From a virus, in the IMG/VR virus record IMGVR_UViG_3300027782_000030, positions 62,001 through 126,000 of that record: DNA of 64,000 nucleotides. One strand, given 5' to 3'. The position numbers were made by a program, and so were the translations under genes. A model generated the notes under the pieces. It saw only the letters and a program-made list of their open reading frames with translations, was not told the origin of the DNA and ran no database searches. Numbering within the stretch: the stretch's first letter is position 1; the number at the start of each line of letters is the position of its first letter. Below, piece by piece: positions 3,984-53,517 of this stretch.

Positions 3984-4036
3984 GCTGTATATGAGTTATA
4001 TGCTTTAGCCAACGTTCTTTAATACGCATCTATTAT

Positions 4037-29805: not shown

Positions 29806-30255
29806 ATGCCACAATATATAGGATTCAGCACTCTAGGGGCTAACTTGCCTAAAACTACTAATGCACCAACCGGCAACGATGGTGGTACAGGTAACATCGT
29901 GCGTCAAAATAATGTAGGTAAAAAGTTTAGGTTAGTAGATCAGCCATTAGTAATACAAGACTTTGTAAATGCATTGAATATTAGACAAGGACAAAAAGTA
30001 GGTCAACCCGGGTATGGAACTACTCTTTGGTCATTTATTTTTGAACCTAATACCACTGACACTCAATACCAATTACAAACTGAAGTACAACGGGTAGCCA
30101 GTTTAGATCCTAGATTAATAGTTAACAGTGTTGTGGCATTCCCACAAGAACTTGGTATTCTTATTGAAGTAGAAATAGCCGTAGCCCCATTCAATCAGGC
30201 TCAAGTTCTTAGTTTATTCGTAGATACTAATCTTTCACAGATTTTAGTTCAATAA
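29806..30255 (+). CDS. 25: baseplate wedge protein, gp25-like
   Basis: A 149-residue member of the GPW/gp25 family (T4 gp25, 132 residues). It shows the conserved VIQDFVNALNIRQGQKVGQPGYGTTLWSFIFEP core (about 47-80), followed by VQRVASLDPRLIVNSV. It joins sheath and wedge and triggers sheath assembly. The first 35 residues are a flexible Asn/Gly/Thr-rich arm. It sits before gp6, its usual wedge partner. Confidence 0.95.
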   Translation: MPQYIGFSTLGANLPKTTNAPTGNDGGTGNIVRQNNVGKKFRLVDQPLVIQDFVNALNIRQGQKVGQPGYGTTLWSFIFEPNTTDTQYQLQTEVQRVASLDPRLIVNSVVAFPQELGILIEVEIAVAPFNQAQVLSLFVDTNLSQILVQ

Positions 30256-33687: not shown

Positions 33688-36600
33688 ATGGCAACTAGAA
33701 TCCGCACCCTAAATTTTCTACCAGAGATATTTCAAACTCCGACTAACGCTCAATTTTTAGCGGCTAGTTTGGATCAACTAGTAGCACAGCCACTGACTAA
33801 AACAATTCAAGGGTATGTGGGTAGTAGGTTTGGTTACGGGGTTAATGCTAAAGATTATTATGTAACTGAACCAACTAAAGTAAGAACAGATTATCAATTA
33901 GATCCCGGAGTAGTATTTACCAAAACTAATCTATCTACTGCACAAGATTTCATTAGTTACCCAGGTATATTAGATGCTCTTAAACTTGAAGGGGCACTAA
34001 CTGCTGATAATAGTAGATTATTTAATAGTCAATTTTATTCATGGGATTCGTTTACAAATCTAGATAAAATTATTAATTTTAATCAATACTATTGGATTCC
34101 TGAAGGTCCTGAGCAGGTTGTAGTATCATCAGACACAGTATTTGCTACTAATGATTATTTGGTAACTGATGTTGTAAATGGTTATAACATTATTCCTGTT
34201 ACTTCAACTGAAGCAGGAACTACTAACCCAACATTAACATTATTAAGGGGAGGTACTTATACTTTTGCAGTAAATCAATCAGGTCAATTTTGGATTCAAG
34301 GTGCACCTGGAGTAACTGGATATAGTCCTACCCAACCTAATTTACAAACCAGAGATGTATATGGGGTAGACAATAATGGTGCAACTATAGGAACGGTTAC
34401 ATTTACAGTTCCTCCAAAAGATGCTCAAAATAATTATAATTTTCCTGGTAATAATTTAGTTGATGTAGTAAGTGATATTCCTTTCAATGAAGTTAACGGT
34501 GCTAGAGTAAGTGATCTAGGTGGTATTGACGGTGTTACAGCATTGAACGGGTTAACCGTTATGTTTTATAACACTGGTATCACTAATGAGATTGGATTTA
34601 CTTCAAACTTCTTTGACTATACTAATTATGATTATAATAATAATTTAGTAGCTACAGAAACAGTTGATGTAACTGCAACAGCATCAACTGGTAATTTAAT
34701 TACATGTGATTCAACAAGCAATTTAGTTGTAGGAAATTCTATAGTATTCTCAGGAGTTGGCTTTGGTGGATTATCTATCTATTCTGAAACTCTTCCTGAT
34801 ACTTTATATTTCGTAGAAAGCATTACAAGTCCTACTGAATTTTCAGTGTCATTGACTGTTGGTGGAGCACAAGTAGTACTTTCAGATGATACCGGTACAT
34901 TGGTAGGCACAACTAATCAGGGATTGTTAGAAGAAGGATTCTACACAACAGTTAATCAAAATTTTTATACTATTGAGTATATCGGAGATGTAGCGAATCC
35001 TATAATCAGATTAATACCTAGTTCATTGATACCTACTAATCAAAAAATAACAGCAAATTTTGGTACTCAGTGGATAAGCAGAGTTTTCTATAAAAATGAA
35101 TTTGGTATAATTAACATTGTTCCTTTTATAAGTGCACCACTAGATACTTTATATTATCAAGACGGAACTTCTGCTAATAAAGTTGGTATAATTCGTATCA
35201 TTGACAGTAATATTACAAATACACTAGATGTAGAAACAGACATATTAGGTCAGCTACAATTCACTGCAACAAATGGGGTAGTGTTTACTAATGGATTAAA
35301 AGTAGTATTTCAGGGTGATGTAATTCCTGCAAGTTATAAAACTGGCGCATATTATGTTGAGGGTGTTGGTAGTGGAATAGAATTAATACCAGTAAGCAAT
35401 TTAATATCACCTGATCCCTTTACAGCAAGTACCTATGTACCTTGGGACACTACAGCATGGGACATTGGCAATTGGGAAGGAACTTCATATATTCCCGTAA
35501 CTCCTGATTACATTACCATTGCAAGAAATAGTATTGACCTAAATGCTTGGTCAAGAAGTAATAGATGGTTTCATATTGATGTAATCAATGCTACTGCTGA
35601 ATATAACAATGATCCTACATTGTTTACTCTATATGCTACACCTGAAAACAAAGCAAAGCGTCCTATAATTGAGTTTTACCCTAACTTACGGTTATTCAAT
35701 ACTGGCACAGAAGGTAAAGATCCTATTGACTTTATTGATTTTAGAACTACCGACGCATTTTCACAAGTTGCAGGTCAAGAAAATTATTATCCTGATGTAA
35801 CCGCATATACTGGTTATGATGCAGTTATTGCTACCGTAGTGGCAGATACCACTACTGACATTGTTATTCCTATTGATAGTGTGCAGGGTACATTTGCAAT
35901 AGGACAATATGTTGCAGATTCTACAAACTTATTACCAACCAATTCATATATTACAGACATTGTAACCACAACTACTACTGTGACTTTAACTATAGAATGG
36001 ACATTTGCTACCTCCTTCACAGGTACTGCTGTAGCGTCGGTTATAAGCACTGATACTACTGTAGATAATTATGCATTGTTTGATGGTTCAAGAGTTGTAT
36101 TTGCAGTTGATACTGATGCTAATGTAAGAAATAAAATTTATGTATCTAGATTTTCATCTATAAATGGTTCTACTCCAGTTATTACTCTAACTGAAGCGAC
36201 TGATGGTGAAGTTCTAGTTAATCAAGGAACAGTTGTACTAAGAGGGTATGTCAATCAAGGTAATGATTTTTACTTTGATGGGATTGAATGGATAGAAGCC
36301 CAAGAAAAAATAACTGTAAATCAGCCCCCATTATTTAACGTATTTGATGAAAACGGTGTTAGTTTTGGTAATGCTGATTTATATGTTGGCACTTCTTTTA
36401 TAGGTAATAAATTATTTGCATACGGCATTGGTGCAGGTATAAATGATATTGTATTAGGATTTCCAATACGGTATAGTTCTGTAGACAATGTGGGTGACAT
36501 ATCATTTGATGTATCATTAAACTTAGATACATTTAACTATGTCCAAGGTAATGAACCTATTACACAACGGGTTAATACTGGATATGTCCATCAAGCAGTT

Positions 36601-39600
36601 AATAGAACAGAATATATAAGACAGATTGGTTGGCAAACTGCGGTATCACCTAGTATTCAATATCAGATATTTGAATTTGATTATGATGTTTTAAATCCTA
36701 CAACAACCTTTACTTGCGATATAGCAATGATGGATGTTGCTGACACGAATTGGCCTAATATTGAAGTTTATATTAATAATGTAATACAAGATAATACTAC
36801 CTATACCGTAACGGTAAATAGTAATTCTACAGTAGTAACTCTAAACGATACTATAATAGATAACACTGTAATACAAATATTATTATTAAGCAATCAAGTA
36901 AGCAAAACCGCTTATTATAGTATCCCGATCAACTTAAATAACAATCCATTCAATGAGGATATAACTGTAGCTAACGTTGGGGATATACGAGGGCAATACC
37001 AAAGTATATTTTTCAACAATCCAAATACTACAGGACCTGTGTTTGGATCAAATAATTTTAGAGATTTGGGTAATTTAGTTCCATGGGGCAATCGCATTAT
37101 TCAGAATAGTGCATCACTAGTATTACCTAGCGTATTTTTACGCAAACAAAATCATAGTTTGTTTAATTCGTTATTGTTTAATAATCGTGAATATATTAAA
37201 TTTAAAACTTTATTAGTAGATACAGTTAATAATACAGATTATGTTCAGCGTTATTCACCCTCAGAAATTTTAGATAATGCATTAGATCAAATAACTTTTA
37301 GCAAGACTGATAATCAACCGTTCTTTTGGAGCGATATGCTACCTAGTAAGGCAGCATATATTACTAATACATATACTTTTGCTAATAGCTTAGATGTAAG
37401 TATATACTCATTGAGTAGAATTTATGATTTTACTACAGCAAATTACTACGGAGTTTTAGTATACTTAACAAGAACCGTAGAAAATATTACTGCAACTAAA
37501 CAATTAATAATTAATCAGGATTATACTGTAAGTTCAGATTCTCCGTCGTTGACAATAACACTTGATTTATTACCCGGCGATATTATTACTATCAAGGAAT
37601 ACAATCAAACATATGGTTCATATGTACCCAATACACCAACTAAGTTAGGATTGTATCCTGCGTTTATTCCTGCCGTAGTACAAGATATTAACTATTCACA
37701 ACCTACATATTTTATATTGGGTCATGATGGTTCTTATAACAAATTATACGGTAATTATTTACCTAATGCAAATTTATTAGTAGATTTTAGAGATCAGGCA
37801 TTATTAGAATATGAGACCCGTGTTTACAACAACTTAAAATTAAGTAATGCAATACCTATTCAAGCGTATGAAGTATTACCTGGTTTCTTTAGAACCACAG
37901 ATTATTCTTTTGACGAATGGTTAGAAATTTATAGTGTGGGCTTTTTAAATTGGGTAGGACAAAATCGTTTAGATTATAAGCGTCAATTATTCCAAACCAA
38001 TAATGAATTTACCTATAATTACTGGCAAAGTGGTAATGCAATTAATAGAGAGGCTATCTATCAAGGATATTGGAGAGGTATATATCAATATTATTACGAT
38101 ACATCTACCCCAAATACTACACCATGGGAGATGTTAGGATTTGTCAATAAACCAAGTTGGTGGGAAACTAGATATGGTCCTGCGCCCTATACTAGCGATA
38201 ACTTAGTATTATGGACTGATTTATCAGAAGGTATTGATTGGAATGATGGGAACCCTGTTGTAATTCCTGCTGCTGTCAGACCTGAATTACTTCAAGTGAT
38301 TCCAGTAGATAGTTCAGGAGATTTATTATCTCCTCTAAGAAATATAGTTGGAAGTTACAATTCAAACATTTTCCAACGTGATTGGAAAGTAGGTGATGAT
38401 GCACCAGTTGAATTTAGTTATCGTAGAAGCAGTTCATATCCTTTTGATTTAATGCGTATATTAGCATTAACTAAGCCTGCTGAATTTTTCAACTTAGGTG
38501 TTGACCTAGACAACTATAAGTATAGCGAAGAGTTTGGTCAATATCTTGTTAATAATAGAAGTCATTTAGTAATAAGCAATGTTGAAATTTATGGTTCAGG
38601 TACTGCTAAAACTAGTTACATTAATTGGATTGTTGATTATGAAAAACAAGTTGGAGTAGATGCTACTGCTAATATTACCACACTATTAGACAACTTAGAT
38701 GTACGATTAGTGTATCGTCTTGCTGGATTTAGTGACAAGACCTTACTAAAATTTTATGTAGAGAAAGGTACTCCAAACAGCAGAAATGCTTCGCTATTAA
38801 TACCTGATGAAAGTTACAGTATATTATTGTATGACAATCAACCCTTTAATCGTGTAATATATAGTGGTGTAGTGGTACAAATAAACCAATACGGATTCTC
38901 AGTATTTGGAAATTCTCAAACACAAACTTATTTTAAAACATTAAAACCATATTATAATGGTAACTATGAACGCATTGCGGTAGACAATTTAACAGTTAAA
39001 GTTTCTCAAGACCACAGCGAAGTTGAAGTTATTGTGCCATATAATACCATATATGGAACTGTACAAGAGGTAGCAACATTTTTATCTAACTATGGCGCTT
39101 GGTTAAGAAACTTAGGACTAACCTTTGAGCAACAAGCAAATGAGTTAGAAATTAATTGGAATCAAATGATTGCTGAGTTTTTATATTGGGCTCAGACTGG
39201 GTGGGAAGAAGGAAGCATTGTTACTTTAAATCCTGCTGCAAGAACTATTGCGTTTAATAAAGATAGTAACATTGTACAACCATTAACTATTCAACAAACA
39301 AATTTTATTCTAAATCAAAATTTATATCCTATTCAGAATAGAGATTTAGCAATTATTCGTGAAGGAACTCTATTCACTGCTACAGCATTAAATGATGGGG
39401 ATGCTATTTCGTATGCTCAATTTAATATTAGTAATTTTGAACATGGTATAGTTTTTGACAATATAACTCTATTCAATGACATATTATATAACTTAGTCAC
39501 CGGGTTAAGACAAAACCGTATTACTTTACGAGGAACTAAGAGTGCAGATTGGAACGGCACAGTTGATGCTCAAGGATTTATCTATAATCAAGATAATATT

Positions 39601-42600
39601 AAAGAATGGAATAATACTGTTACCTATACTAAGGGCGAAATTGTATTATATAAAAACAAATATTGGGTAGCATTAAAAATAGTTCAACCAAAATTGGTAT
39701 TCGAAGAACTAGAATGGAAGCGTACAGATTACGATGAAATTCAAAAAGGATTATTACCTAATAGTAGTACAAGAAGTTATGAGAGTACTCTATACTATGA
39801 TGTAAACAAAGCTAATTTAGAAAATGATGCTGACCTCTTAAGTTTCTCATTGATCGGTTACCGCCCAAGAGACTATCTAGCACTTGCTGATTTAACTGAT
39901 ATTACACAAGTAAACGTTTATAAAAACCTAATTAAATCTAAAGGAACTCGCAACGCAACCAATGCATTTAAGGGAGCGAATCTTCCTCAAGGTGGCATAG
40001 ACTATGACATTTATGAAAATTGGGCTATTAAATCAGGTGAATTTGGTGGACTTTTAAATAATAATTTTGTCCAGTTTAAGATCAATCAAAATTACATGAC
40101 TGGAAATCCAAGTATAGTTGGACTTACAAATGGTGTATATAACGAAGGTGTACAACAAGAAGTTCCGCTATATTCATTGTTTAATTATGGTAGACCTATT
40201 ACTTCAGTAGATATACTACCTACTATATCAGCACAAGAACCATCTACCGTTTATCCTACAGCAGGATATGTTAACTTTAACGACGTTAAAATGTCATCTT
40301 ATTTCTATTCGCAGCTTCCTTTAGCAGTGGATAGTAATAATTTAGTAGTGCCATTATCACGCCTTTATGTTCGTGATTATGTGTGGATGGCAAATTATTT
40401 ACAGCGTTGGGAAGTATTTACACCCAAATCAATGGGCATCATTTTAAATGTAAGTAATAACTTAAACGATACAGCAACAGTTACATTTAAAACTCCTCAT
40501 AATTTAACAAGATTTGAGCCTTTTGCAATTGTTAATTTTTCTGATGCTGTTAATGGTTACTATATTAGCACTGTAGTAGTAGATCAATACAGAGTATTAA
40601 TTACTTTGACTTTGGATCCTTCTGTTACTAATATTACTGGTCAAGGCGTAGGATTTAGATTCCAATCACAACGAGTGGCTCAGCCTAGTAATATAGCAGA
40701 TTTACCTTTATTAGATTCTGAATTCTTTAAGAACACGGCATGGGTAGATGAGAACACAGATGGTGGTTGGGCAGTTTATAGAAAAGGTATAAATTATCAA
40801 TATCAATTAGAATTTACTAAATCTTCTTCTGATACATTTGGTAGTGCAGTAGCAACTGGTAGCCAATTAGGTTATCTAATTGGTGATGCTGATTTAGGAC
40901 AAGCTTACCGCTATACATTCAATGATTTAACACAGACTTATGCGTTAGTACAAACACTAAGTTCAGGTACTTCATTTGGATCTACTATTGCTTATAGCAG
41001 CGACATATATGTAATTTCTGAACCTACTACTTCACCATATATTCACATATATCAACTTCAAAATAGTACTCTATCTGATGATTTGATCGTATATCAAGCA
41101 GCGATTGCCGCACCTGGTGGCGTAACAAATTGGGGTAGTGCAGTAGCAATATCAGGTAATACAAATTGGATTTATGTTTCTGACATTGTTAATAACACCG
41201 TTCATGTATATAGAAAAGCAAACATTACTACTCCCGCTACCAATCTTACTGCGGGACAAACTTATATCATTACTGATGCAGGTACTACTGATTTTACTTT
41301 AGTCGGTGCTACATCAAGCGATGTGGGAACAGCATTTGTTGCTTCAGGAGTAGGTACTGGAACCGGTCTTGCAACAAAAAGCACTTATCAAAAAGTAACA
41401 TCTATAGACGGTGATGCATTGTCATTAACTGTAGCAGGAGATAATTTTGGTTACTCTTTAGCAACAGATTATTATGGTGATACTTTAATAATTGGCACAC
41501 CTAATAAAGATTACAGTGCTACTATTGATAATTGGGGATATGTATATGTGTTTGACCGCGCAGTACAAAATATACAAGTACAAACAAACAGTGTTCCATT
41601 AACACCACAAGTATTTAATTTAGCTTGGACTCCAACAACACTATCAAAAACATTGACTGCTACTAATAGTACTGGTAATTTATTGACATTAAACAGTGTT
41701 GCAGGTATTACCGTTAACGATCCGATAATCTTTACAGGGTCAGGCTTAGCAGGAACAGAAATTATTGCAGATGAAGTATATTATGTGCGTTCAATAGTCG
41801 GTAGTGATATTACTATTAAACTTGGTAGATTTACAACATCTGCCGTAACAGTAGCTACTGTTTCTTCTATTAGTGTTCCTACTACTGTACAAAACACTCC
41901 AATCTATGTTTCGGTAAATGGAACCTTAGTTGAAGACAGTGAATATGCTATTATTTCTAATACATTAATATATACTGGGCTATTAAGTGCAGGTGATATT
42001 ATTAATGTAAGTGGTCAAGATTTTACATTGATTCAAACTCTTACTACAGAAAACACTCCTAAAGTTGGTGTGCATTTTGGTAATAGCGTAGACACAACTA
42101 TATATGCAAGTGAAATTATTGCAGGCGCTCCATATGAATTAGTTACACAAATTAAAGAAGGTGCAGTTTATCGTTATACGAATGGTGGCGGTAAATATGG
42201 AATAATAATTGGTACAAGTGATGTTAATGTTACAACACCTAGAAATGTATTAATCAACGGCTTCTTAGTAACAGTTCCAACTGGCAATGCAACAACAGTA
42301 GCCAATGCAATTAATGCAGTTGCGATACCTAACATTGTTGCATCTGCCATCGATGGTAAACTAGTACTATCTTTAGTAGATAATAATTTAGCGCAAGTAA
42401 ATGAAAAGATATTATTAAGCGCAACTAATAGCGCAACTCTAGGTGAATTAGGTATAAACATCTTTACACAAACACAAACTGTAGAATGTCCTCATACTAA
42501 TAGTCGGACACAGTTTGGTACTGTAGTTAAATTTAATGAGTATGGCAGTTTTGTTGCTAGTGCTCCAGTTGGCACAAGATTTAGCGATACTACTTTTGAT

Positions 42601-45600
42601 TTTATAGATGATGAAAATCAAGACAATGACACCGTGTTTGATAACAACACCACTACTTGGATAGATACCTTCCCAAATGCAGGTGCGGTATACATGTTTG
42701 ATTATTTGGCTAATTATAACGAATCTCTATTAAATTGTGGTAAGTTTGTTTATGCACAAAGTGTCAATGGTCAAAATTTAGAATACGGTCTACAACCAAA
42801 TTACGGCACTGCTTTAGACTTTAATAACTACAGTGTAATTATAGGAACACCAGGATTTAGTCCTACTAATGGTCAAGCAATAGCATATACTAATACATCA
42901 AATCAAAAAGATTGGTCAGTATATAGAAGTTCTGCACCTGTAGTTGATATTAACGGTATCGCTAACATTCAATTGTTTAGCGCCCGAACAAACGAAACTC
43001 TGATTAACATGGATTATATTGATCCATTACAGGGCAAAATATTAGGTGCTGCTAGAGAAAATATTGATTATGTAGCCAACACAGACCCGGCTACTTATAA
43101 TAATGGTGAACTTGTTCCTAGTAATTTAGTATGGGGAGCAATACAGATTGGTCAAATTTGGTTTAACACAACCAATGTTCGTTATGTTAATTATCATCAA
43201 AACAATAATACATACAACAGTAAATATTGGGGTACCCTATTCCCTAACAGTGATGTTGCAGTATACACATGGATAACATCTGATACACTTCCTATCAACT
43301 ACATTGGTTCAGGTACTGTGTATGATCCAACCAAGTATTCTATACAATATGTAATTAATCCTTCAGGTGCTTTATCACCAATCTATTTCTATTGGGTCAG
43401 AGATACAGGCATCATAACACCTAATTTAGGAAAAACTCTAGCTGATAGTATTATTGCTGCTTATATAGCCAATCCTAGAAATTCAGGGATTAGTTATTTT
43501 GCACCATTACTACCTAGTGTATATGCACTGTACAATGTAGGCGATTATATCAATGCTAATGACTCAGTATTAAATATTGGATTTGGTACAGGAACAAGCG
43601 ATGATGTTGTTCATAATCAATACGATTTAATAAGAGTTAATTTTGCCGATGACTTTTTACCTGGATTACCTGATATCTATCTAGGTGAAACAGAACCCTA
43701 TTCATTGTATGCTAGATTATTAGACAGTTTATCAGGGACTGATGTATCAGGTCAAGTTGTTCCTGATCCATTCTTACCACTAGCAGTACAAACTGGTGTT
43801 CTTGTTAGACCTAGACAAAGTTTCTTTTATGATAGATTGGGTGCTGTTAAAAACTTTTTTGAATCATTAAATGAAATCGTAAAAGAATATCCATTTTTTG
43901 AAATTTCTGATGCTACATTTATATACGCTTCAGGTGAATTTTTTGATGCTACTAATTATTGGGAAACAATTAATTGGTGGGCACCTGGGTATAATGACAA
44001 TACCAAATCTACAATACAAGTTCCTATATATTCTGATTTAGCTACCTTATCAGTAACAGAAGGTACTATTGTAACAGTTGCAACCAATGGGTTAGGACTA
44101 TCTGAAACTTACATTTTTGCAAATAATGAATGGCTAAGAATTGGACTAACTAACGGTACAATCAAATTTAAGAGTTCTCTTTGGGATTATGCTGGAGCAA
44201 GAATAGGTTTTGGTGATAACTTTTTTGACACTAGTCCATATGATTATTATCCTAGCGAAGAGACCCGTTGGTTAGCAAGAGCATTAACTGAGCAATTACC
44301 TTCTGAATTATTAATATATAGAAATAAAATATTAATTCTTCTTTTTGAATATATTGTTAGTGAGACAATTGAAACTCAAAATTATCTGCCATGGTTAAAT
44401 AAAACATCATTTATAGATGTAGCACATACTATTAGAGAACTATTGCCTATTGAAGTTTTTCAAAGTGATAATCAAACCTTTTTAGAAGGGTATTTAAATG
44501 AAGTTAAACCCTATCATGTAGTAATTAAAGATTTCTTGTTTAAGTATACAGGTACTAATGTATATCAAGGCAATATTACGGACTTTGATGTACCTGCACA
44601 ATTTAATACTAGTATACAGCGTTGGGTATCCCCTCAATTAGTGTATAGCAATCCTAGTGATGTAAATCAATATTTACCAACTAGCCCTATATGGCAAGAA
44701 CCCGATTATATTAATTGGTTTCAAAATTATGGTGTAAGTTTGACTGGTCAAGACGGTGTACAAATAACAACATTAACTTCTTATTTGGCACTTAATTCTG
44801 CTGAAATGTCAGTTAACAATGCACAAGGGTTCCCAATCAATGGTGTAGTACAAATTGGTACTGAACAGATTGGATACTCTTCTGTAGATAGAAATCTAAG
44901 TGTTCTTACTGGATTGACTAGAGGAGTAAACGGCACACTGATCACTAATCATATTCCTGGAGAGTTAATTTATATTAATCTTCCGGCAGTATTGGTATTA
45001 GATGGTGGTAGAGGCTATACCGAGCCTCCTAAAGTTATAGCATATATTGATCCTTTATTATATCCTTTACCAACTGTACCTGCTGTATTAACCGCAGTAA
45101 TGAGTTTAGACTCAGTGTTGAGGGTCGATGTAGTCAATCCTGGACAAGGATATGCGGTATTACCTAAGATAATAATAGATCCTTCTACTGTAATTTCTTT
45201 CGCTAGCAGTGCAGTAAGTACAACATACAATACAATAATATTGTATGCGCCGTTATTGCAGACAGGGGATTTAGTACAGTATAAAGTTAGTGCTGGCGGG
45301 ACCCAAATTGGTGGTCTAGAAAACAATCAATGGTATTATGTTAATTTATTAGAGACTTCGCCTACAGTAGTTGTAGCATTATATTCTAATTATACTGACG
45401 CAACATATGATGTTAACCGTGTTAAATTGTTTAGTACAGGCACCGGTGACCAGTCATTAAGTTTAGGGGCAAAGGCATCAGCTATTTCTACTGCATTGCC
45501 TGTTAGAGAAAATAACATTACTCTAAGATTTGACAGAACAACTTATACTTCGCAAGTAATAGATTGGCAGGCTGGTCAATATTATGGCGCATATTATGCT

Positions 45601-48600
45601 GGGGAATATAATAATAGTGAATCAGTAGCTAGTTCGTCTATTAAGTTACAAAGTACTCAACCTCCAATAAGTTCTATTTTAGCCAGTGCTCAAGGAGCAG
45701 TTTTTGAAATTGAAAATGTACGCAATGACAGAGTAGTAACATATTCATCTTTTATTCGTCAGGTGGCAAGTACTCAAATATTAGATAATTCAATTACTCT
45801 TACCACATTTAGTAACAACCCATTGGATGTTAACGCATCAGGCTCTACCATTGGTTTCTATGTTGGAATGCCTATCAAATTCGCAGGAGCTGTAATAGGT
45901 GGACTTGTCAATGACACTGTATACTATGTCCATAGCATTATAGATGATACTAACTTTACAATATCAGAAAGTAGCACAGGTAGCCCCGTTAAGACGCTTT
46001 CAAATGGAACTGTCAGCGCAGCAGGATTAGAGTGTTATGTGGGTGAAGTGACTGATACAGCAATACTAACTGTTATTTATCCTGCTATAACCAATGTTAC
46101 CGCTACCCAAGCAGCAACCAATGCTCTTACTATTCCATTAAATGCAACTGGTACAGGCGGGACTATTGGATTTTATATTAATTTACCTGTATTTTTCACA
46201 GGTACAATGTTAGGTGGGGTAATAGAAAACCAAGTATACTACATTACTACTGTAATAAACAACCAGACATTTACAATGTCTGAAACAACTAATCCAATAA
46301 CATTAAACATTACTTCAACTGACGGCACATTTGATTATATCACTACAAGTGACGATACCTCTGTGCTATCAATCAATGAACCAATAATATTCAATACTAT
46401 GGTAGTTGTTGGAGTAGATGTATTAACGTTTGGTGGGCTAGTATCAGGAACTACATATTATGTTTCAGCCATTGTCAATGCTAGCACATTCCAAGTATCA
46501 GCAAGTATTAATGGCCCGTCATTGAATTTATCTACAGTGACCACGGCCACAACTACTAGTGCATTAATGACTAGTCAGAAAAATATTGTTCAACTAACTA
46601 CCGCTACAGGTAGTGATATGGTTATTAATATCAATTTACCAGTCAGCCCAGGTCAGGTAAATGGTCAACAATTTACCTTATATCAAACTTCAGAACAATA
46701 TATTGGACTAACTGGTACTGATGGATCGTTAATAAACAGAACTATAGGTGCTGTAATAGGTACAACCGATATTGTAGCATTAACAAGTCTTAGTGGCGGG
46801 ACTACCAATGTATACATTGGAATGCCATTAGAGATTTCTCAGAATATTGGATCACTAGTAACTGGTACAACATATTATGTAATTGATGTTGGAACTATAG
46901 AAATTGAATGTACTAGCACTTCGTCATCCACTGACGCAATAACTTGTGATACAACTGATTCATTATATGTAGATATGCCAATAATATTCACTGGTACAAG
47001 TTTGGGAGGAATCTCAATCAATGTTGAATACTATGTTCATACAATTGTAGATGGCACTCACTTTAAGATTACTGGTAGCCCGAATGACGCAGTTATTACT
47101 TTACAAAATAGTAACGGTACAATGATTGGTACAGGTGAACCTTATATTCAATTATCTACTACAATAGGTGGATCAGTTGAGCCAACAGGAGATTCACAAC
47201 AAGCCGCATCAATATCGGTTGCTAGCCCCGCAGTAATTACAGTAGCAGCAGCACCAGCAAATGGCACTAAGGTTGAATTCAGAAGCACTGGCGCATTGCC
47301 AACTGGGCTATTTGAAAATATAACCTATTATGTAATAAATTCAGCAGTGACTACATTTAATGTAGCGTATGTTCCTAGTGGAACAGCAATCAATACTACT
47401 GGGAGTGGTTCAGGCACCAACATTGTAATTGTCACTGATGAAGTGTTCATAGATCAAACTCCATTAGCTGTACCTGAATTTGATGTAAGTTATATTTTAG
47501 GTGGCTATAGAGCGGTCATATCTGATCCAGGACTAGGTTATGCTGTCAACAATACTATTACTATATTAGGTACAGATATAGGCGGAACTAGTCCATTAAA
47601 TGATCTAACAATTACAGTGGATGCGGTTAACGGTACAGGGGAAATAACCAATGTAGCCTGTAGTGGTACGGTAGCGGGAGTAACTGATAGTTATTACTTA
47701 CAAGTTATATCACCAAATGAATTAGCTGTATATTCTAATCCATTAATGACTGTACCGGTGAGTGGTATTAATTTCCCTTATATCGGAATCACATCAACTA
47801 CTGCTACTGGTACTAATTTAGGAACTGATATAATAACTGTAGATTCTACTACAGGCTTTTTAGTCAATGATCCTGTGGTATTTACAGGGAATGTAGTTGG
47901 TGGATTAGTACTAGGACAAACTTATTATATTTTAGACAATGTAAATTTCACATCTACTACACTTCAAGTAAGCGAAACTCCAGCTGGTTCAGTATTTAAT
48001 ATAACAGCAACCACTTCAGTACAAAGTTTCACAATGGCTAAGGTAGGAGATTTTGCTTTATTACCTGAACCTTTCAACTTTAATCAAAGCATTGTTAAGT
48101 TTAATAACCGAGTGTATGTTTGTGTTGTTAGCAACAATGACCAAGAATTTATTTTTGGTAAATGGGAACTATTAACTAGCGGAGATCGCAGGTTAAATGC
48201 ATTAGACAGAATCATTGGATACTATCAACCTACGATAAACATGCCCGGGGTAGACCTTACTCAATTGGTAGATGGTATTATATATCCTAATAGTACATAT
48301 TTAGGTAATGCGTTTCAGCCCGATCAACAGTTTGAGATAGATACTTATTTACAAGATCAACCATTTTACCCTACTGAGGTACAATCAAAATCTGTAGTTT
48401 GGAATGGAACTAATTATTTTGTAGTAGCCGATACTTCTTCTTATTCTACTATATTATACAGCCCAACAGGAGATGATTGGGTATTTAATAAAGTATCTGA
48501 TTCTAATCTAGCAACTACTGATTTAAATTATGTAAATGGGAAGTACTTGATTACAACTAACAACCCAGCTACACCTATATTATTAAGTATTGATGGGGTT

Positions 48601-51600
48601 GAATGGACTGCTTCAGAAAGCTATGTTAGTCTTGGTGAAGTTACCGCAACCCCAATCGCAGATGGTCAATTAGTATTAAATTCTATAAACTACTTTAATG
48701 GTGTTTATATAGCAGTTGGACAAAATATCAACACAAGCATTGATGGTGTAACATGGAGAGAAAGATTTAAATTTACAAACGGCTTAACTAACGAATTATA
48801 CTCAGTGTTTGGAACAACTATTGCATTATCTGCTCCATACATTGCTGTTGGTAAAGGTCAGTTTATAGACTATTCAACTGGACTACAAACAGTTAGTAAT
48901 ATCAATCTAGTATATACATCTTATGACAGCATAAATTGGAATCAAGCTACTCCAGTAACTAATAAAGGTTTCTATGGTATTACATATGACACTAATATTT
49001 TTATTGCTGTAGGTGAAGCTGGGGTCATCTACACTTCTCAAAACGGAGCATCTTGGTTTGGTATTAATGAGACAACTGTGACCAGTGTAAATTCATCTAG
49101 TAATATATTGAATGTGGCTGCTACTGCAGGATTTAATGTCAATGATATAGTAAGATTTACTGAATCGTTCAATGTCATTTCTTCGGCTACGACATATTAT
49201 GTGGTTAGTATTCCTAGTCTAACACAAATACAAGTTAGTACAACTTTAGGCGGATTACCGATTACTTTAACTTCAGTTAATCCAACTACTACTGCCTACA
49301 TGTATCTATATCCTAGAACACAGGATCTCAATGATGTATTATATGCTAACGGTGCATTTATAGCAGTAGGAGATGCAGGAACAATACTAACCTCTGCAAC
49401 AGGGTATACTTGGACAACTGTTGCATCAGGTGTTGTTGAAAATCTAAATGGTATTAATTACAATGAAGATGATGGTGTTTGGATAGCTGTAGGAGACAAT
49501 AACACTATCATTACTAGTGATGACAACGGAGCAACTTGGACTAGCAGTTCAGTATTAGTAGTAGATCCTACTGTTTATAATGTACAGGGTGCAGAATTTT
49601 CATATGGATATGGTCCTGAAGAATTAGTGCCTGGTGTGGTTACTGATAATATAATGTTAACCGTAGCCACTCGTCCTGGAACAGATTGGCCTGCCGTAGA
49701 GTATCAACATGTTGGTTACAATGTAGTAAGTCTAGAATTAACACCCGAGTTTGAGAATCAAACATATTATAGTTTTCTTTATGCTGTTACCACTCCAGCA
49801 CAATTAACAGTGTCGGTTATAGATGGTACTACTGGAATAAGCACAACAATTTATCCTGACGCAAGTTACTATATAGATTGGGTAACTAGTCAAGTTATTT
49901 TAAATAATCCATTGACCTTTTCGCCTGTTGCAGATAGATTAAGAATTGATGTATATGAAGTGGGTAATGGAAATCAGCTAGTAAAATCTAGTACTAAATC
50001 CGATCCAATTAGAATTAATACCACTACTGGATGGAACGAAATTAACTTAGATTGTAATTATTCTGCTACTAGGTTTAATGGTAGTGGGGTGATTAGAGCA
50101 GGTACAGAACTTAAAAACACTGTGGCAACAGCAACTACTAGTAGCACAAATATTATCACCTGTGCCAGTGTAGAAGATTTTGTTTTAAATAGTCCTATTA
50201 CTTTCCAAGGTACTACTTTTGGTAATATTTTAGAAGATACTATCTATTATGTAAAGACTATTAGTTATGTAACTAGCAGTATTACTGTTTCTACTACCTA
50301 CAATGTAAGCACCGGTACTGCAGGACCCACTTTACCACTCACTACTGATACAGGTTCAATGGTTGTAATTATTCAAGTTGGTTCGGGTGCGGTTTGGACG
50401 GATCCTATATGTTATCTGAATGGTGCTAAATTAGTTTTAGGTACTACTGAAACAGTTACAAAAACAAATGGAATAACCAATACAGTTACCTGTCATACTA
50501 CTGGTACATTAATAGTAGGTCAAAATATTACCTTTAGTGATACAATGTTTGGTGGAGTTATACAGCCCCAAACAGTATACACTATACTAAGTATCAGTGA
50601 CGCCAACGAATTTGTATTAGAAGATCCTACTAACCCGGGTAATCCATTAGCATTAACTACTGCTACCGGTGGCGCCGAAATCGTTACAAATGATTATGCA
50701 TTTGGAATTGCAGAAGACGGTATAACTGCAAAGATAGTATTTGCAGTTGGAACTTATAATAATCAAAGTGATTATATATCCTATACAGTGTTTGGCGAAA
50801 CTGTTCCTACTCAATATGGCTACACTATACCTGAAACTCAAATTATATACCCAGCGACTGGTGGTAGCACATATGCATTGACTAATTATGTGGGGACAGA
50901 CAATGTTACTAATGCAATAGTTGAAGTTAATGGACTACGAGTATTAGATACAAATTATACTATTGATCCTAACCTAGATGAAATTACTTTTACGACTATT
51001 CCAGCAGTGGGCGATACTATATCAATTACATCATACAATTTAACTGATAGACAGTATCTAAGCACAATGTATGATGTAAATTCTGCAACAAGCACAGTGG
51101 CTAACATTGTAGCTATTAACAATACTATAGCTCCTTATATTGCTACTACTAATGTATCATCATGCACATCCGTTGGCAATTTAATCACCTGTGTAAGTAC
51201 ATCAGGGTTTGTAATAGGTCAAACCATTATCTTTAAGGGCACTGGATTTGGTAATATTCTTACTGATGGAACTGTTTATTATATTAAAACAGTGCCAGGG
51301 TTAACCACATTTACTATTAGCCAAACCAATGGCGGAAGTGCTTTTGATCCAGGTACAGATTCAGGATTAATAGTTGCATATGTGGGAGGTACCCCGGCCG
51401 TAAGAATAACAACAGGTGTTCCGCATGCATTGACAACTAATGAAATTGTTAGAATTGATGGGACATTAGGTTCTATTCAACTTAATAATAATACTTTTTA
51501 TGTACATGTCATAAATTCTACCCAAGTTGATTTATACTCTGAAGCTTATGACCCTGCATTTGCAGCAGTTAATTACCCAATAACTGCTATATCAAGCTAT

Positions 51601-52728
51601 ATAAGTGGGGGATATGTTTGGATTGATACTATATTCACTCTAGTTACTGTAGATGCAACTGCAACTTCGACTGATCCAATTAATGGAAATAGAATTACCG
51701 TGTCAACTACTCTTAATCTAGTAATAGACACCCCTGTCATATTTACTGAGTTTGGTACAGCTTTAGGTGACACATTATTAGGTGGATTGGTTGCAGGAAC
51801 TACTTATTATATTAAAGAAATCTTTAATTTAACTGAATTTTCAGTGTCCAGTGCTAGAGATGGCGATGAATTTGTTTTAACTAATGACGCAGGAACAATG
51901 AATGTTACACAGTGGGAACAGGACAATGTTGATCGTTTATGGGTAACTGTTAATGGTTATCGTGTACCATCAAGTTCATTGAGAATCAACCCTGCTAATA
52001 ATTTAAGCATATTGACTACAATTCAAGTAGGTGATGTAATAATTATTACTAGTATGATGCCTTCTCCGACTCCAAATGAACAAGTGTTTTTAATTAATGT
52101 GAATACGGTGAATCAAGGTGTAGTATATAGAGCAAATACACAAACTAGAACTTGGTTAGTAGAACCACTTTATAATACACATGACACGATATATGTTGAT
52201 GATGTAACTAGAATAACCGATACAGTAGTACAAAATGTTACAACTCCCGCTCCAGTTGATGGTATATACAGTATTGGCTTAAGTGCTGATAAAAATATGA
52301 TTTCTAGCATTGCCGTATTCAATGTTAGTACCAATCTTACTGTCCCTAGTAACACCTATGAAATTGTAGTAGAAAATTTATCTCCTATACTTAAAATTAG
52401 TACGGAATATGTGAACACAGGCGATAATTTAATTATAACCGTCTTAGAAGGCAACATGTTGTTTATTAATGGGGAGCAGATTAAATTCACTAGCGTAGAC
52501 TTTGATTATAATAGTATAACAGGGTTACAGCGTGGAGCAAATGGCACAGGTGAACAGGTATACATCCCGCAATATAGTGAGGTATTTAGTTTATTGTCAT
52601 CTAATAGAATGACTAATATCCTATATAATCAAACTTGGAACTCATATGATTATAATCCAACTCTAGGAGATCCGTTGCAGATAAGTAATACTCAAGCAGC
52701 AGTTTTCTTAAATGGCGATGTTAATTAA
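33688..52728 (+). CDS. 7: giant gp7-like baseplate wedge protein, 6346 residues
   Basis: One uninterrupted frame of 19 kb. The N-terminus (IRTLNFLPEIFQTPTNAQFL, GSRFGYG, FNQYYWIPEGPEQV) and the region near residues 3398-3655 (LPWLNKTSFIDVAHTIRELLP, GYLNEVKPYHVVIKDFLFKYT) resemble the gp7 wedge proteins of aquatic T4-like phages; T4 gp7 has 1032 residues. Interspersed are about 16 beta-rich repeats of 70-85 residues, an FG-GAP-like propeller (about 2378-3060), a BNR-like propeller (about 4898-5291), GG-GY-PP motifs and VNG...YTID...GD modules near the C-terminus. The extension of about 2700 residues after the wedge core probably projects from the baseplate and may bind host or glycans. No Shine-Dalgarno sequence; GATAAGTAC lies just upstream of the start. 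Confidence 0.85.
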   Translation: MATRIRTLNFLPEIFQTPTNAQFLAASLDQLVAQPLTKTIQGYVGSRFGYGVNAKDYYVTEPTKVRTDYQLDPGVVFTKTNLSTAQDFISYPGILDALKLEGALTADNSRLFNSQFYSWDSFTNLDKIINFNQYYWIPEGPEQVVVSSDTVFATNDYLVTDVVNGYNIIPVTSTEAGTTNPTLTLLRGGTYTFAVNQSGQFWIQGAPGVTGYSPTQPNLQTRDVYGVDNNGATIGTVTFTVPPKDAQNNYNFPGNNLVDVVSDIPFNEVNGARVSDLGGIDGVTALNGLTVMFYNTGITNEIGFTSNFFDYTNYDYNNNLVATETVDVTATASTGNLITCDSTSNLVVGNSIVFSGVGFGGLSIYSETLPDTLYFVESITSPTEFSVSLTVGGAQVVLSDDTGTLVGTTNQGLLEEGFYTTVNQNFYTIEYIGDVANPIIRLIPSSLIPTNQKITANFGTQWISRVFYKNEFGIINIVPFISAPLDTLYYQDGTSANKVGIIRIIDSNITNTLDVETDILGQLQFTATNGVVFTNGLKVVFQGDVIPASYKTGAYYVEGVGSGIELIPVSNLISPDPFTASTYVPWDTTAWDIGNWEGTSYIPVTPDYITIARNSIDLNAWSRSNRWFHIDVINATAEYNNDPTLFTLYATPENKAKRPIIEFYPNLRLFNTGTEGKDPIDFIDFRTTDAFSQVAGQENYYPDVTAYTGYDAVIATVVADTTTDIVIPIDSVQGTFAIGQYVADSTNLLPTNSYITDIVTTTTTVTLTIEWTFATSFTGTAVASVISTDTTVDNYALFDGSRVVFAVDTDANVRNKIYVSRFSSINGSTPVITLTEATDGEVLVNQGTVVLRGYVNQGNDFYFDGIEWIEAQEKITVNQPPLFNVFDENGVSFGNADLYVGTSFIGNKLFAYGIGAGINDIVLGFPIRYSSVDNVGDISFDVSLNLDTFNYVQGNEPITQRVNTGYVHQAVNRTEYIRQIGWQTAVSPSIQYQIFEFDYDVLNPTTTFTCDIAMMDVADTNWPNIEVYINNVIQDNTTYTVTVNSNSTVVTLNDTIIDNTVIQILLLSNQVSKTAYYSIPINLNNNPFNEDITVANVGDIRGQYQSIFFNNPNTTGPVFGSNNFRDLGNLVPWGNRIIQNSASLVLPSVFLRKQNHSLFNSLLFNNREYIKFKTLLVDTVNNTDYVQRYSPSEILDNALDQITFSKTDNQPFFWSDMLPSKAAYITNTYTFANSLDVSIYSLSRIYDFTTANYYGVLVYLTRTVENITATKQLIINQDYTVSSDSPSLTITLDLLPGDIITIKEYNQTYGSYVPNTPTKLGLYPAFIPAVVQDINYSQPTYFILGHDGSYNKLYGNYLPNANLLVDFRDQALLEYETRVYNNLKLSNAIPIQAYEVLPGFFRTTDYSFDEWLEIYSVGFLNWVGQNRLDYKRQLFQTNNEFTYNYWQSGNAINREAIYQGYWRGIYQYYYDTSTPNTTPWEMLGFVNKPSWWETRYGPAPYTSDNLVLWTDLSEGIDWNDGNPVVIPAAVRPELLQVIPVDSSGDLLSPLRNIVGSYNSNIFQRDWKVGDDAPVEFSYRRSSSYPFDLMRILALTKPAEFFNLGVDLDNYKYSEEFGQYLVNNRSHLVISNVEIYGSGTAKTSYINWIVDYEKQVGVDATANITTLLDNLDVRLVYRLAGFSDKTLLKFYVEKGTPNSRNASLLIPDESYSILLYDNQPFNRVIYSGVVVQINQYGFSVFGNSQTQTYFKTLKPYYNGNYERIAVDNLTVKVSQDHSEVEVIVPYNTIYGTVQEVATFLSNYGAWLRNLGLTFEQQANELEINWNQMIAEFLYWAQTGWEEGSIVTLNPAARTIAFNKDSNIVQPLTIQQTNFILNQNLYPIQNRDLAIIREGTLFTATALNDGDAISYAQFNISNFEHGIVFDNITLFNDILYNLVTGLRQNRITLRGTKSADWNGTVDAQGFIYNQDNIKEWNNTVTYTKGEIVLYKNKYWVALKIVQPKLVFEELEWKRTDYDEIQKGLLPNSSTRSYESTLYYDVNKANLENDADLLSFSLIGYRPRDYLALADLTDITQVNVYKNLIKSKGTRNATNAFKGANLPQGGIDYDIYENWAIKSGEFGGLLNNNFVQFKINQNYMTGNPSIVGLTNGVYNEGVQQEVPLYSLFNYGRPITSVDILPTISAQEPSTVYPTAGYVNFNDVKMSSYFYSQLPLAVDSNNLVVPLSRLYVRDYVWMANYLQRWEVFTPKSMGIILNVSNNLNDTATVTFKTPHNLTRFEPFAIVNFSDAVNGYYISTVVVDQYRVLITLTLDPSVTNITGQGVGFRFQSQRVAQPSNIADLPLLDSEFFKNTAWVDENTDGGWAVYRKGINYQYQLEFTKSSSDTFGSAVATGSQLGYLIGDADLGQAYRYTFNDLTQTYALVQTLSSGTSFGSTIAYSSDIYVISEPTTSPYIHIYQLQNSTLSDDLIVYQAAIAAPGGVTNWGSAVAISGNTNWIYVSDIVNNTVHVYRKANITTPATNLTAGQTYIITDAGTTDFTLVGATSSDVGTAFVASGVGTGTGLATKSTYQKVTSIDGDALSLTVAGDNFGYSLATDYYGDTLIIGTPNKDYSATIDNWGYVYVFDRAVQNIQVQTNSVPLTPQVFNLAWTPTTLSKTLTATNSTGNLLTLNSVAGITVNDPIIFTGSGLAGTEIIADEVYYVRSIVGSDITIKLGRFTTSAVTVATVSSISVPTTVQNTPIYVSVNGTLVEDSEYAIISNTLIYTGLLSAGDIINVSGQDFTLIQTLTTENTPKVGVHFGNSVDTTIYASEIIAGAPYELVTQIKEGAVYRYTNGGGKYGIIIGTSDVNVTTPRNVLINGFLVTVPTGNATTVANAINAVAIPNIVASAIDGKLVLSLVDNNLAQVNEKILLSATNSATLGELGINIFTQTQTVECPHTNSRTQFGTVVKFNEYGSFVASAPVGTRFSDTTFDFIDDENQDNDTVFDNNTTTWIDTFPNAGAVYMFDYLANYNESLLNCGKFVYAQSVNGQNLEYGLQPNYGTALDFNNYSVIIGTPGFSPTNGQAIAYTNTSNQKDWSVYRSSAPVVDINGIANIQLFSARTNETLINMDYIDPLQGKILGAARENIDYVANTDPATYNNGELVPSNLVWGAIQIGQIWFNTTNVRYVNYHQNNNTYNSKYWGTLFPNSDVAVYTWITSDTLPINYIGSGTVYDPTKYSIQYVINPSGALSPIYFYWVRDTGIITPNLGKTLADSIIAAYIANPRNSGISYFAPLLPSVYALYNVGDYINANDSVLNIGFGTGTSDDVVHNQYDLIRVNFADDFLPGLPDIYLGETEPYSLYARLLDSLSGTDVSGQVVPDPFLPLAVQTGVLVRPRQSFFYDRLGAVKNFFESLNEIVKEYPFFEISDATFIYASGEFFDATNYWETINWWAPGYNDNTKSTIQVPIYSDLATLSVTEGTIVTVATNGLGLSETYIFANNEWLRIGLTNGTIKFKSSLWDYAGARIGFGDNFFDTSPYDYYPSEETRWLARALTEQLPSELLIYRNKILILLFEYIVSETIETQNYLPWLNKTSFIDVAHTIRELLPIEVFQSDNQTFLEGYLNEVKPYHVVIKDFLFKYTGTNVYQGNITDFDVPAQFNTSIQRWVSPQLVYSNPSDVNQYLPTSPIWQEPDYINWFQNYGVSLTGQDGVQITTLTSYLALNSAEMSVNNAQGFPINGVVQIGTEQIGYSSVDRNLSVLTGLTRGVNGTLITNHIPGELIYINLPAVLVLDGGRGYTEPPKVIAYIDPLLYPLPTVPAVLTAVMSLDSVLRVDVVNPGQGYAVLPKIIIDPSTVISFASSAVSTTYNTIILYAPLLQTGDLVQYKVSAGGTQIGGLENNQWYYVNLLETSPTVVVALYSNYTDATYDVNRVKLFSTGTGDQSLSLGAKASAISTALPVRENNITLRFDRTTYTSQVIDWQAGQYYGAYYAGEYNNSESVASSSIKLQSTQPPISSILASAQGAVFEIENVRNDRVVTYSSFIRQVASTQILDNSITLTTFSNNPLDVNASGSTIGFYVGMPIKFAGAVIGGLVNDTVYYVHSIIDDTNFTISESSTGSPVKTLSNGTVSAAGLECYVGEVTDTAILTVIYPAITNVTATQAATNALTIPLNATGTGGTIGFYINLPVFFTGTMLGGVIENQVYYITTVINNQTFTMSETTNPITLNITSTDGTFDYITTSDDTSVLSINEPIIFNTMVVVGVDVLTFGGLVSGTTYYVSAIVNASTFQVSASINGPSLNLSTVTTATTTSALMTSQKNIVQLTTATGSDMVININLPVSPGQVNGQQFTLYQTSEQYIGLTGTDGSLINRTIGAVIGTTDIVALTSLSGGTTNVYIGMPLEISQNIGSLVTGTTYYVIDVGTIEIECTSTSSSTDAITCDTTDSLYVDMPIIFTGTSLGGISINVEYYVHTIVDGTHFKITGSPNDAVITLQNSNGTMIGTGEPYIQLSTTIGGSVEPTGDSQQAASISVASPAVITVAAAPANGTKVEFRSTGALPTGLFENITYYVINSAVTTFNVAYVPSGTAINTTGSGSGTNIVIVTDEVFIDQTPLAVPEFDVSYILGGYRAVISDPGLGYAVNNTITILGTDIGGTSPLNDLTITVDAVNGTGEITNVACSGTVAGVTDSYYLQVISPNELAVYSNPLMTVPVSGINFPYIGITSTTATGTNLGTDIITVDSTTGFLVNDPVVFTGNVVGGLVLGQTYYILDNVNFTSTTLQVSETPAGSVFNITATTSVQSFTMAKVGDFALLPEPFNFNQSIVKFNNRVYVCVVSNNDQEFIFGKWELLTSGDRRLNALDRIIGYYQPTINMPGVDLTQLVDGIIYPNSTYLGNAFQPDQQFEIDTYLQDQPFYPTEVQSKSVVWNGTNYFVVADTSSYSTILYSPTGDDWVFNKVSDSNLATTDLNYVNGKYLITTNNPATPILLSIDGVEWTASESYVSLGEVTATPIADGQLVLNSINYFNGVYIAVGQNINTSIDGVTWRERFKFTNGLTNELYSVFGTTIALSAPYIAVGKGQFIDYSTGLQTVSNINLVYTSYDSINWNQATPVTNKGFYGITYDTNIFIAVGEAGVIYTSQNGASWFGINETTVTSVNSSSNILNVAATAGFNVNDIVRFTESFNVISSATTYYVVSIPSLTQIQVSTTLGGLPITLTSVNPTTTAYMYLYPRTQDLNDVLYANGAFIAVGDAGTILTSATGYTWTTVASGVVENLNGINYNEDDGVWIAVGDNNTIITSDDNGATWTSSSVLVVDPTVYNVQGAEFSYGYGPEELVPGVVTDNIMLTVATRPGTDWPAVEYQHVGYNVVSLELTPEFENQTYYSFLYAVTTPAQLTVSVIDGTTGISTTIYPDASYYIDWVTSQVILNNPLTFSPVADRLRIDVYEVGNGNQLVKSSTKSDPIRINTTTGWNEINLDCNYSATRFNGSGVIRAGTELKNTVATATTSSTNIITCASVEDFVLNSPITFQGTTFGNILEDTIYYVKTISYVTSSITVSTTYNVSTGTAGPTLPLTTDTGSMVVIIQVGSGAVWTDPICYLNGAKLVLGTTETVTKTNGITNTVTCHTTGTLIVGQNITFSDTMFGGVIQPQTVYTILSISDANEFVLEDPTNPGNPLALTTATGGAEIVTNDYAFGIAEDGITAKIVFAVGTYNNQSDYISYTVFGETVPTQYGYTIPETQIIYPATGGSTYALTNYVGTDNVTNAIVEVNGLRVLDTNYTIDPNLDEITFTTIPAVGDTISITSYNLTDRQYLSTMYDVNSATSTVANIVAINNTIAPYIATTNVSSCTSVGNLITCVSTSGFVIGQTIIFKGTGFGNILTDGTVYYIKTVPGLTTFTISQTNGGSAFDPGTDSGLIVAYVGGTPAVRITTGVPHALTTNEIVRIDGTLGSIQLNNNTFYVHVINSTQVDLYSEAYDPAFAAVNYPITAISSYISGGYVWIDTIFTLVTVDATATSTDPINGNRITVSTTLNLVIDTPVIFTEFGTALGDTLLGGLVAGTTYYIKEIFNLTEFSVSSARDGDEFVLTNDAGTMNVTQWEQDNVDRLWVTVNGYRVPSSSLRINPANNLSILTTIQVGDVIIITSMMPSPTPNEQVFLINVNTVNQGVVYRANTQTRTWLVEPLYNTHDTIYVDDVTRITDTVVQNVTTPAPVDGIYSIGLSADKNMISSIAVFNVSTNLTVPSNTYEIVVENLSPILKISTEYVNTGDNLIITVLEGNMLFINGEQIKFTSVDFDYNSITGLQRGANGTGEQVYIPQYSEVFSLLSSNRMTNILYNQTWNSYDYNPTLGDPLQISNTQAAVFLNGDVN
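34660..34920 (+). repeat. first copy of the GG-YY beta repeat in the giant protein
   Basis: An isolated copy near residues 325-411: NLITCDSTSNLVVGNSIVF, GFGGL, TLYFVESIT, FSVSL and DDTGTLVG. It matches the pattern NxITCxSTxxLxVGxPIxF, GG, YYVxxI, FxIS, GTM seen in later copies, and is inserted in the N-terminal wedge region. Confidence 0.7.
40820..42865 (+). other. predicted seven-bladed FG-GAP-like beta-propeller in the giant protein
   Basis: Seven blade signatures occur in order: FGSAVATGSQLGYLIGDA, FGSTIAYSSDIYVISEP, WGSAVAISGNTNWIYVSD, FGYSLATDYYGDTLIIGTP, FGNSVDTTIYASEIIAGAP, FGTVVKFNEYGSFVASAP and YGTALDFNNYSVIIGTP. This resembles integrin-alpha type FG-GAP repeats. Several small domains, including a GG-YY repeat at 41645-41870, are inserted between blades. 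Confidence 0.65.
45765..48045 (+). repeat. cluster of tandem GG-YY beta repeats
   Basis: At least six more-or-less tandem copies of the 70-85-residue unit (for example GMPIKFAGAVIGGL...YYVHSIIDDTNFTISES; DMPIIFTGTSLGGI...YYVHTIVDGTHFKITGS; NDPVVFTGNVVGGL...YYILDNV). Further copies occur near 49075-49315, 50125-50375, 50450-50690, 51150-51390 and 51650-51920. Nucleotide identity between copies is low, so the array is old or rapidly diverging. Confidence 0.7.
48380..49560 (+). other. predicted seven-bladed BNR/Asp-box-like beta-propeller in the giant protein
   Basis: Seven units of the form h-Y-h-A-V-G...I-x-T-S-x-D-G-x-x-W: YFVVAD..SPTGDDW, YLITTN..SIDGVEW, YIAVGQ..SIDGVTW, YIAVGKG..SYDSINW, FIAVGEAGVIYTSQNGASW, FIAVGDAGTILTSATGYTW and WIAVGDNNTIITSDDNGATW. 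One GG-YY repeat (49075-49315) is inserted between blades five and six. Such propellers often bind glycans; no sialidase catalytic set is evident. Confidence 0.7.
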
Positions 52729-52744: not shown

Positions 52745-52897
52745 ATGAAAGATAAATCTTCAGAAAGCCAAGAAAATAAGGTTCCAGTACCTGAAAAAAA
52801 ACCCAATGAAAATGGAGGTTTTTATTTTTCTTCGCATCTGAAAATTACAGACCCAAATACTAAACAAGTGCTAGTGCAAAAAAGAGGCGATAACTAA
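52745..52897 (+). CDS. 50-residue protein related to the N-terminus of the next gene product
   Basis: A short gene with the frame MKDKSSESQENK...QVLVQKRGDN. Its TAA overlaps the next ATG (TAATG). The C-terminal half, GGFYFSSHLKITDPNTKQVLVQKR, has the same pattern as the start of the following 206-residue protein (GFLKIYDPNNGEIFVEKKNA): hydrophobic-K-I-x-D-P-N-x-x-x-(h)-h-V-x-K. The first half is charged and Pro-rich. No function is known; coupling suggests both act in one structure, perhaps as alternative docking subunits at the baseplate or fibre. Confidence 0.7.
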   Translation: MKDKSSESQENKVPVPEKKPNENGGFYFSSHLKITDPNTKQVLVQKRGDN

Positions 52898-53517
52898 TGT
52901 CGGTGATTACATTATCCTATAGAATAGAAGGTTTTTTGAAAATCTACGATCCAAATAATGGAGAAATATTTGTAGAAAAGAAAAACGCTATTAACTACGA
53001 AAACATGTCAGAAGCTATTGCTAATACTTTAAGTAGTCGTGGTTATGGTGAGATTTACGAAATGGCATTTGGAAATGGTGGGGCAAGCGTAGACGAAACA
53101 GGTGTGATTACATATCTACCTCCAAACACAACTGGAATTAATGCATCATTATATAACCAAACTTATGCTAAAATTGTAGATGATACTAGTGTGTTTAATT
53201 TAGATCCTACTAGAAATAAGATGACGGTTACCCATGTAACTGGAAAACTTTATACAGACATTTTGGTACAGTGTTTATTAGACTATGGCGAGCCTGCAGG
53301 ACAAGATGCATTTGATAATAGTACACAAACTGACGGGCAATATGTATTTGATGAATTGGGATTATTGGCTAATTATGGTACAGATAATCTTGGACAAGTA
53401 ATAACACGATTGTTAACTCATGTCATCTTTCATCCTGTACAAAAAAGTTTAAATAGACAAATTCAAATAGATTACACAGTGCGAATACAAAGTCTTACGA
53501 ACTTGGTAACTATTTAA
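52897..53517 (+). CDS. conserved tail/baseplate-associated protein of unknown function
   Basis: A 206-residue protein. The N-terminus (SYRIEGFLKIYDPNNGEIFVEKKNAINYENM) shares its DPN motif with the preceding small protein. The middle has EMAFGNGGASVDETGVITYLPP and the C-terminus a helical LGQVITRLLTHVIFHPVQKSLNRQIQIDYTVRIQ. Proteins of this type follow gp7/gp8 loci in T4-like phages of aquatic bacteria and are usually called structural; I infer a tail role from context. The gene is translationally coupled to the 50-residue gene. Confidence 0.6.
   Translation: MSVITLSYRIEGFLKIYDPNNGEIFVEKKNAINYENMSEAIANTLSSRGYGEIYEMAFGNGGASVDETGVITYLPPNTTGINASLYNQTYAKIVDDTSVFNLDPTRNKMTVTHVTGKLYTDILVQCLLDYGEPAGQDAFDNSTQTDGQYVFDELGLLANYGTDNLGQVITRLLTHVIFHPVQKSLNRQIQIDYTVRIQSLTNLVTI

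Follow-up and report, generated by a model that had tools for sequence, protein, structure and literature searches.

A 6,346-residue protein in the gp7 gene position of a T4-related jumbo phage, a probable baseplate structural subunit

The gene at 33688..52728 (+) of the window, a stretch of 64,000 nucleotides forming part of a possibly incomplete virus record of 200,570 bases, encodes a single chain of 6,346 residues, hereafter the giant protein. We read it, with a probability of roughly 0.6, as a very large structural protein of the baseplate in the tail of a T4-related jumbo phage, with a core in the place of gp7 and probably gp8 and a C-terminal extension forming an arm. This reading is favoured because the core is colinear with virion homologues, two of them recorded as detected by mass spectrometry, because the gene order is gp25–gp6–giant and no separate gp7 or gp8 is detected, and because the chain combines purifying selection over its whole length with a core of nearly constant length and a variable extension, whose propeller and GxGYT modules are shared with cyanophage proteins of the gp7 slot. 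Against it, the core lacks a significant profile or fold match to gp7, and the carbohydrate-binding-module (CBM)-like and propeller matches in Pfam fall below the curated cut-offs.

The reading frame and its conservation

The frame opens with an ATG 8 bases past the end of gp6 and closes at a single terminal stop, with none internal. With this base composition, 6,346 codons would run free of stops by chance with a probability of about 10^-215; along the entire ORF, third-position GC is evenly depressed. The predicted mass of the protein is 693 kDa. Searching viral contigs with residues 3,059–3,660 yielded 75 related loci. In 42 aligned relatives, which come from many separate virus contigs, the frame is complete and spans 5,717–6,752 residues (median 6,425). 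Two broader scans of viral contigs, in each of which the best 80 of more than 550 matches were taken, gave complete frames of 5,740–6,800 residues, counted stop to stop, within the window clade, and of 3,080–5,176 residues outside it, plus one short frame of 1,905. No relatives were found in bacterial genome contigs.

In codon comparisons with close relatives, dN/dS is 0.05–0.24 in every measured segment of the gene, extension included. Judged by these ratios, the entire frame is translated and selected, with purifying selection keeping the protein along its whole length, which makes an assembly error very unlikely. The frame is broken in 2 of the 75 related loci (L033 and L076), through error or a real split, and this is what an assembly or sequencing artefact has in its favour; the 42 complete frames, one of which (L007) aligns over the full length at 89% identity and keeps dN/dS near 0.1 all along, reduce its probability to almost nothing, and we reject it. 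The unbroken 19-kb frame described in the sequence-only reading, which had named assembly error and splitting stop codons as possible failings, therefore stands.

Genomic setting

Neighbouring genes for gp23, gp20, a gp53-like protein, gp5, gp25 and gp6 indicate a T4-related myovirus (Table 1). The order gp53–gp5–gp25–gp6–giant is that of CBB, PA5oct and PBECO4, and in GAP32, too, the family gene follows gp5, gp25 and gp6. PA5oct has a protein detected by mass spectrometry in a place similar to that of the 206-residue protein downstream of the giant gene.

Several other ORFs of the window deserve mention in their own right. On the minus strand, glycosyltransferase and FkbM/SAM methyltransferase ORFs, including one fusion, lie clustered at 153–3861, and a 1,497-residue ORF that adjoins the portal gene (11342–15835) carries a GH19 chitinase-like domain towards its C terminus. 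On the plus strand, a 408-residue ORF (53551–54777) has a weak Peptidase_G2 or intramolecular-chaperone-like C terminus and is, by its sequence, a possible self-cleaving fibre or spike. Three consecutive radical SAM ORFs (58942–62831, plus strand), the first below the Pfam cut-off and two of the three with an N-terminal SPASM-type domain, form an unusual set of auxiliary genes close to the tail block.

Table 1 Features of the giant gene and its neighbours in the window
Feature	Position	Strand	Basis
Baseplate wedge subunit, gp53-like	23545..23856	+	phrog_7145; corresponding place in CBB is Phage_gp53
gp5 hub / tail lysozyme homologue, 1,222 aa	26130..29798	+	phrog_13211
gp25 homologue	29806..30255	+	phrog_43
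gp6 baseplate wedge homologue, 1,123 aa	30308..33679	+	phrog_10646 E=2e-259; phrog_219 E=3e-18
Family-conserved N-terminal block, residues 1–190, motif IRTLxFLPE...FL	33688..34257	+	31% identity to Atu_ph07 and PA5oct
80-residue repeat copy 1, residues 325–408, core insertion	34660..34911	+	repeat HMM E=1e-21
Main conserved core, residues 800–2,235, KGT motif near residue 2,084	36085..40392	+	family alignment; AF2 pLDDT 81 for 1,230–2,240
Small CBM5/12-like (chitin-binding type) fold, about residues 1,973–2,010, placement inferred	39604..39717	+	Pfam E=0.021, below cut-off
Clade-specific insertion, residues 2,236–3,040	40393..42807	+	FG-GAP repeat and repeat copy 2
C-terminal conserved block, residues 3,040–3,660	42805..44667	+	family alignment; AF2 pLDDT 79, no PDB match
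Clade-specific C-terminal extension, residues 3,661–6,346	44668..52725	+	absent in cultured homologues; present in 42 complete clade members
GxGYT-type module, about residues 3,750–3,925	44935..45462	+	hhalign E=6e-9 to S-CAM9 gp7
Span of 12 copies of the 80-residue GGL..YYV repeat, residues 4,024–6,074	45757..51909	+	repeat profile
Conserved linker LNALDRIIGYYQPTINMPGVDL, residues 4,799–4,900	48082..48387	+	length CV 0.028 in 42 complete genes
YCF48/Asp-box beta-propeller-like module, residues 4,890–5,340	48355..49707	+	hhalign E=1.9e-19 to S-CAM9 gp7
206-aa protein downstream of giant gene	52897..53517	+	phrog_11259, family without known function

A family of virion structural proteins

Two thirds of the giant protein, holding the core, match phrog_10938, a family of virion structural proteins (E=1.3e-187 and 2.3e-79), with profile positions reached up to 2,133 of 3,324. 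Its members include CBB_236, GAP32_230, PBECO4 gp538, PA5oct gp355, Atu_ph07 AUZ94962 and SCTP-2 gp140, and the core is colinear with the homologues of Atu_ph07, PA5oct, SCTP-2, PBECO4 and CBB at roughly 22–32% identity. Uncultured Caudovirales proteins in BFVD (A0A6J5L8L4, A0A6J5T0D1), modelled only in pieces and with no assigned function, match the core block 1,230–2,240 with Foldseek E values down to 3e-89 and 32–35% identity.

CBB_236 was detected in CBB virions by mass spectrometry with 21 unique peptides, at a low coverage of 7.7% (PMC5259590). The PA5oct homologue is flagged as detected by ESI-MS/MS in its database record. T4-type phages process some virion proteins, and a polyprotein, in which assembly would involve cleavage of the long chain between core and extension, could have its junction near residue 3,660. 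The low peptide coverage in CBB would fit such cleavage but has other causes, and we consider a polyprotein improbable.

The question of gp7

Profiles of T4 gp7 and cyanophage gp7, which served as the positive control, match each other with E=2.7e-9. With deep profiles of four core blocks of the giant protein, a match to neither of them reached significance (best hhalign E to T4 gp7 about 0.1–0.4). BLAST and profile comparison of nine other segments likewise brought nothing significant for T4 gp7, and the propeller of the extension does not match the T4 gp7 profile (E=0.13). The best match of the core to cyanophage gp7 (E=0.007) places the KGT motif at residue 2,084 against the SKGT helix of gp7; the reversed profile gives 0.32, and the match is with cyanophage gp7 only, not with T4 gp7.

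AlphaFold2 models of two of the four core blocks, residues 1,230–2,240 (pLDDT 81, pTM 0.68) and 3,040–3,700 (pLDDT 79, pTM 0.44), have no significant Foldseek match among solved structures in the PDB, in a search run without a sensitivity control. A direct sequence search of the PDB with two segments returned nothing. In a library of viral models, residues 1,230–2,240 have significant matches, among them the Atu_ph07 homologue and phage proteins that are unnamed or uncharacterised, and none of these matches is named gp7. The sole recurring local resemblance is a piece of about 50 residues, the CBM5/12-like one, which matches chitin-binding domains in Foldseek with a probability near 1 and E of 0.02–0.6, and also hits baseplate and tail structures of phages, at E of 0.02 or worse.

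A separate gp7 (phrog_964) or gp8 (PF09215) was detected in T4 and in none of the window record, its relatives of 333–524 kb, PBECO4 and PA5oct. The last two records are described as complete genomes; the environmental ones may be incomplete, so that for them the absence is no more than suggestive. As no other gp7 or gp8 gene is detected in the lineage, the giant protein, whose gene directly follows gp6 in the gp7 place of T4 and the cyanophages, probably fills the gp7 slot, and perhaps that of gp8.

The same position and the same absence of another gp7, along with the weak KGT match and the giant size of cyanophage gp7, are what would be expected of a true gp7 orthologue, strongly diverged and inflated by insertions. 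Four core blocks that go unmatched where T4 and cyanophage gp7 still find each other, and two models that resemble no solved gp7, argue against it, and we regard it as a serious possibility that falls short of even odds. Homology to T4 gp7 is unsupported: nothing significant emerged by BLAST, by profiles of the four core blocks and nine segments or by Foldseek of the two models. What survives of a gp7-like baseplate protein, as first proposed, is the baseplate gene block, the virion protein family and the gp7 place; the two stretches taken for wedge-like homology, at the start and near residues 3,398–3,655, are conserved across the family, but their resemblance to gp7 is not confirmed. The gp7 assignment is thus one of gene position, and homology to gp7 is not shown.

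Core, insertions and extension

The conserved blocks lie at about residues 1–190, 500–700, 800–2,235 and 3,040–3,660. Within the clade-specific insertion of the core are an FG-GAP repeat at residues 2,582–2,622 (Pfam PF14312, 28.4 bits against a cut-off of 23) and, by the repeat profile, the second copy of the 80-residue repeat at residues 2,653–2,732. About 2,690 residues follow residue 3,660, in agreement with the roughly 2,700 first noted beyond the wedge-like region; for the most part they consist of repeated modules. The kind of protein is already known, since family members and giant size are both found in public records; what is new in the window clade is this repeat extension, which annotated phage records lack except for matches of module size in six of them.

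By an iterated profile, the 80-residue repeat occurs 14 times in the giant protein: two copies sit in core insertions and the other twelve between residues 4,024 and 6,074. Near-complete clade members have 8–17 copies, relatives outside the clade 0–3 and the four cyanophage proteins examined none. One clade member (L219) has only two copies in a frame of 5,746 residues, its length being kept by other means. The propeller-like module also matches Pfam PSII_BNR, below the cut-off (E=0.0047).

Among the 42 complete genes, the lengths of residues 1–190, 3,060–3,660, 3,660–4,030 and 4,800–4,900 are nearly constant, and the propeller segment varies most, from 49 to 507 across the clade, with the module missing in some relatives. 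Mean conservation of the linker (residues 4,801–4,900) is 0.78 in an alignment of 59 sequences. From this comparison of segment lengths, the extension appears to evolve by gaining and losing modules around fixed anchors.

Proposed role in the baseplate

As a baseplate subunit, the giant protein would dock through its core on gp6 in each of the six wedges, replacing gp7 and probably gp8; assuming six copies, it would contribute about 4.2 MDa. The extension, with its repeat modules, propeller and small sugar-binding-like modules, would project from the wedge as an arm, differing between relatives through module gain and loss. Such an arm would extend the rim of the baseplate and may help to contact the host surface or to hold fibres.

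Modules of the extension also occur in fibres, as in the tail fibre of Caulobacter phage KSC, and some relatives bear whiskers or branched fibres (PMC5259590, PMC3622015), both of which would suit a tail-fibre or whisker-type arm that is encoded beside the baseplate genes and is no wedge component. The core, however, is conserved about as widely as gp6 and adjoins it in the examined relatives, unlike host-range fibres, and purifying selection is very strong; we judge a fibre or whisker rather unlikely. For the baseplate subunit that we prefer, a more speculative history, doubtful at present, is that a T4-related jumbo lineage exchanged gp7 and gp8 for one non-homologous giant, which in the window clade expanded through acquired modules into an arm doubling as an adsorption organ, in parallel to the giant gp7 of cyanophages.

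Comparison with known systems

If the giant protein is a wedge subunit, many environmental phages depend for the size of their baseplate and for host contact on a protein far exceeding the T4 model, and one common to dozens of relatives. T4 gp7, the baseplate wedge initiator, shares with it the gene position after gp6 but, at 1,032 residues, is six times shorter, and no sequence or fold relation is detected in the segments compared. The cultured members of phrog_10938 have the colinear core and the place directly after gp6, but at 3,333 (PBECO4), 3,340 (CBB), 3,857 (PA5oct) and 4,449 residues (Atu_ph07) they are without the 2,700-residue extension of the window clade and its repeats; PA5oct and CBB, being cultured, make the wedge-subunit question directly testable.

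The giant protein is large, yet not the largest in its slot. The unique size that the sequence-only reading implied is contradicted by relatives of 6,752–6,800 residues, and a record is rejected in view of the cyanophage gp7-slot proteins of ACG-2014d (6,817 residues) and P-RSM6 (8,573 residues, encoded at 7908–33629 of L354), both of which exceed it. A search of the open literature found no papers on giant phage baseplate proteins, that of P-RSM6 included. Like the giant protein, the cyanophage proteins are encoded directly after gp25–gp6, and those of S-CAM9 (3,884 residues) and DSL-LC03 (4,107 residues) have the propeller and other modules in common with its extension. They differ in that their gp7 signature is detectable, an SKGT motif in ACG-2014d and P-RSM6 that matches residues 731–758 of T4 gp7, and in a core without detectable homology to that of the giant protein. 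Giant proteins thus occupy the gp7 gene slot in two T4-related phage groups, exceeding 8,500 residues in a cyanophage.
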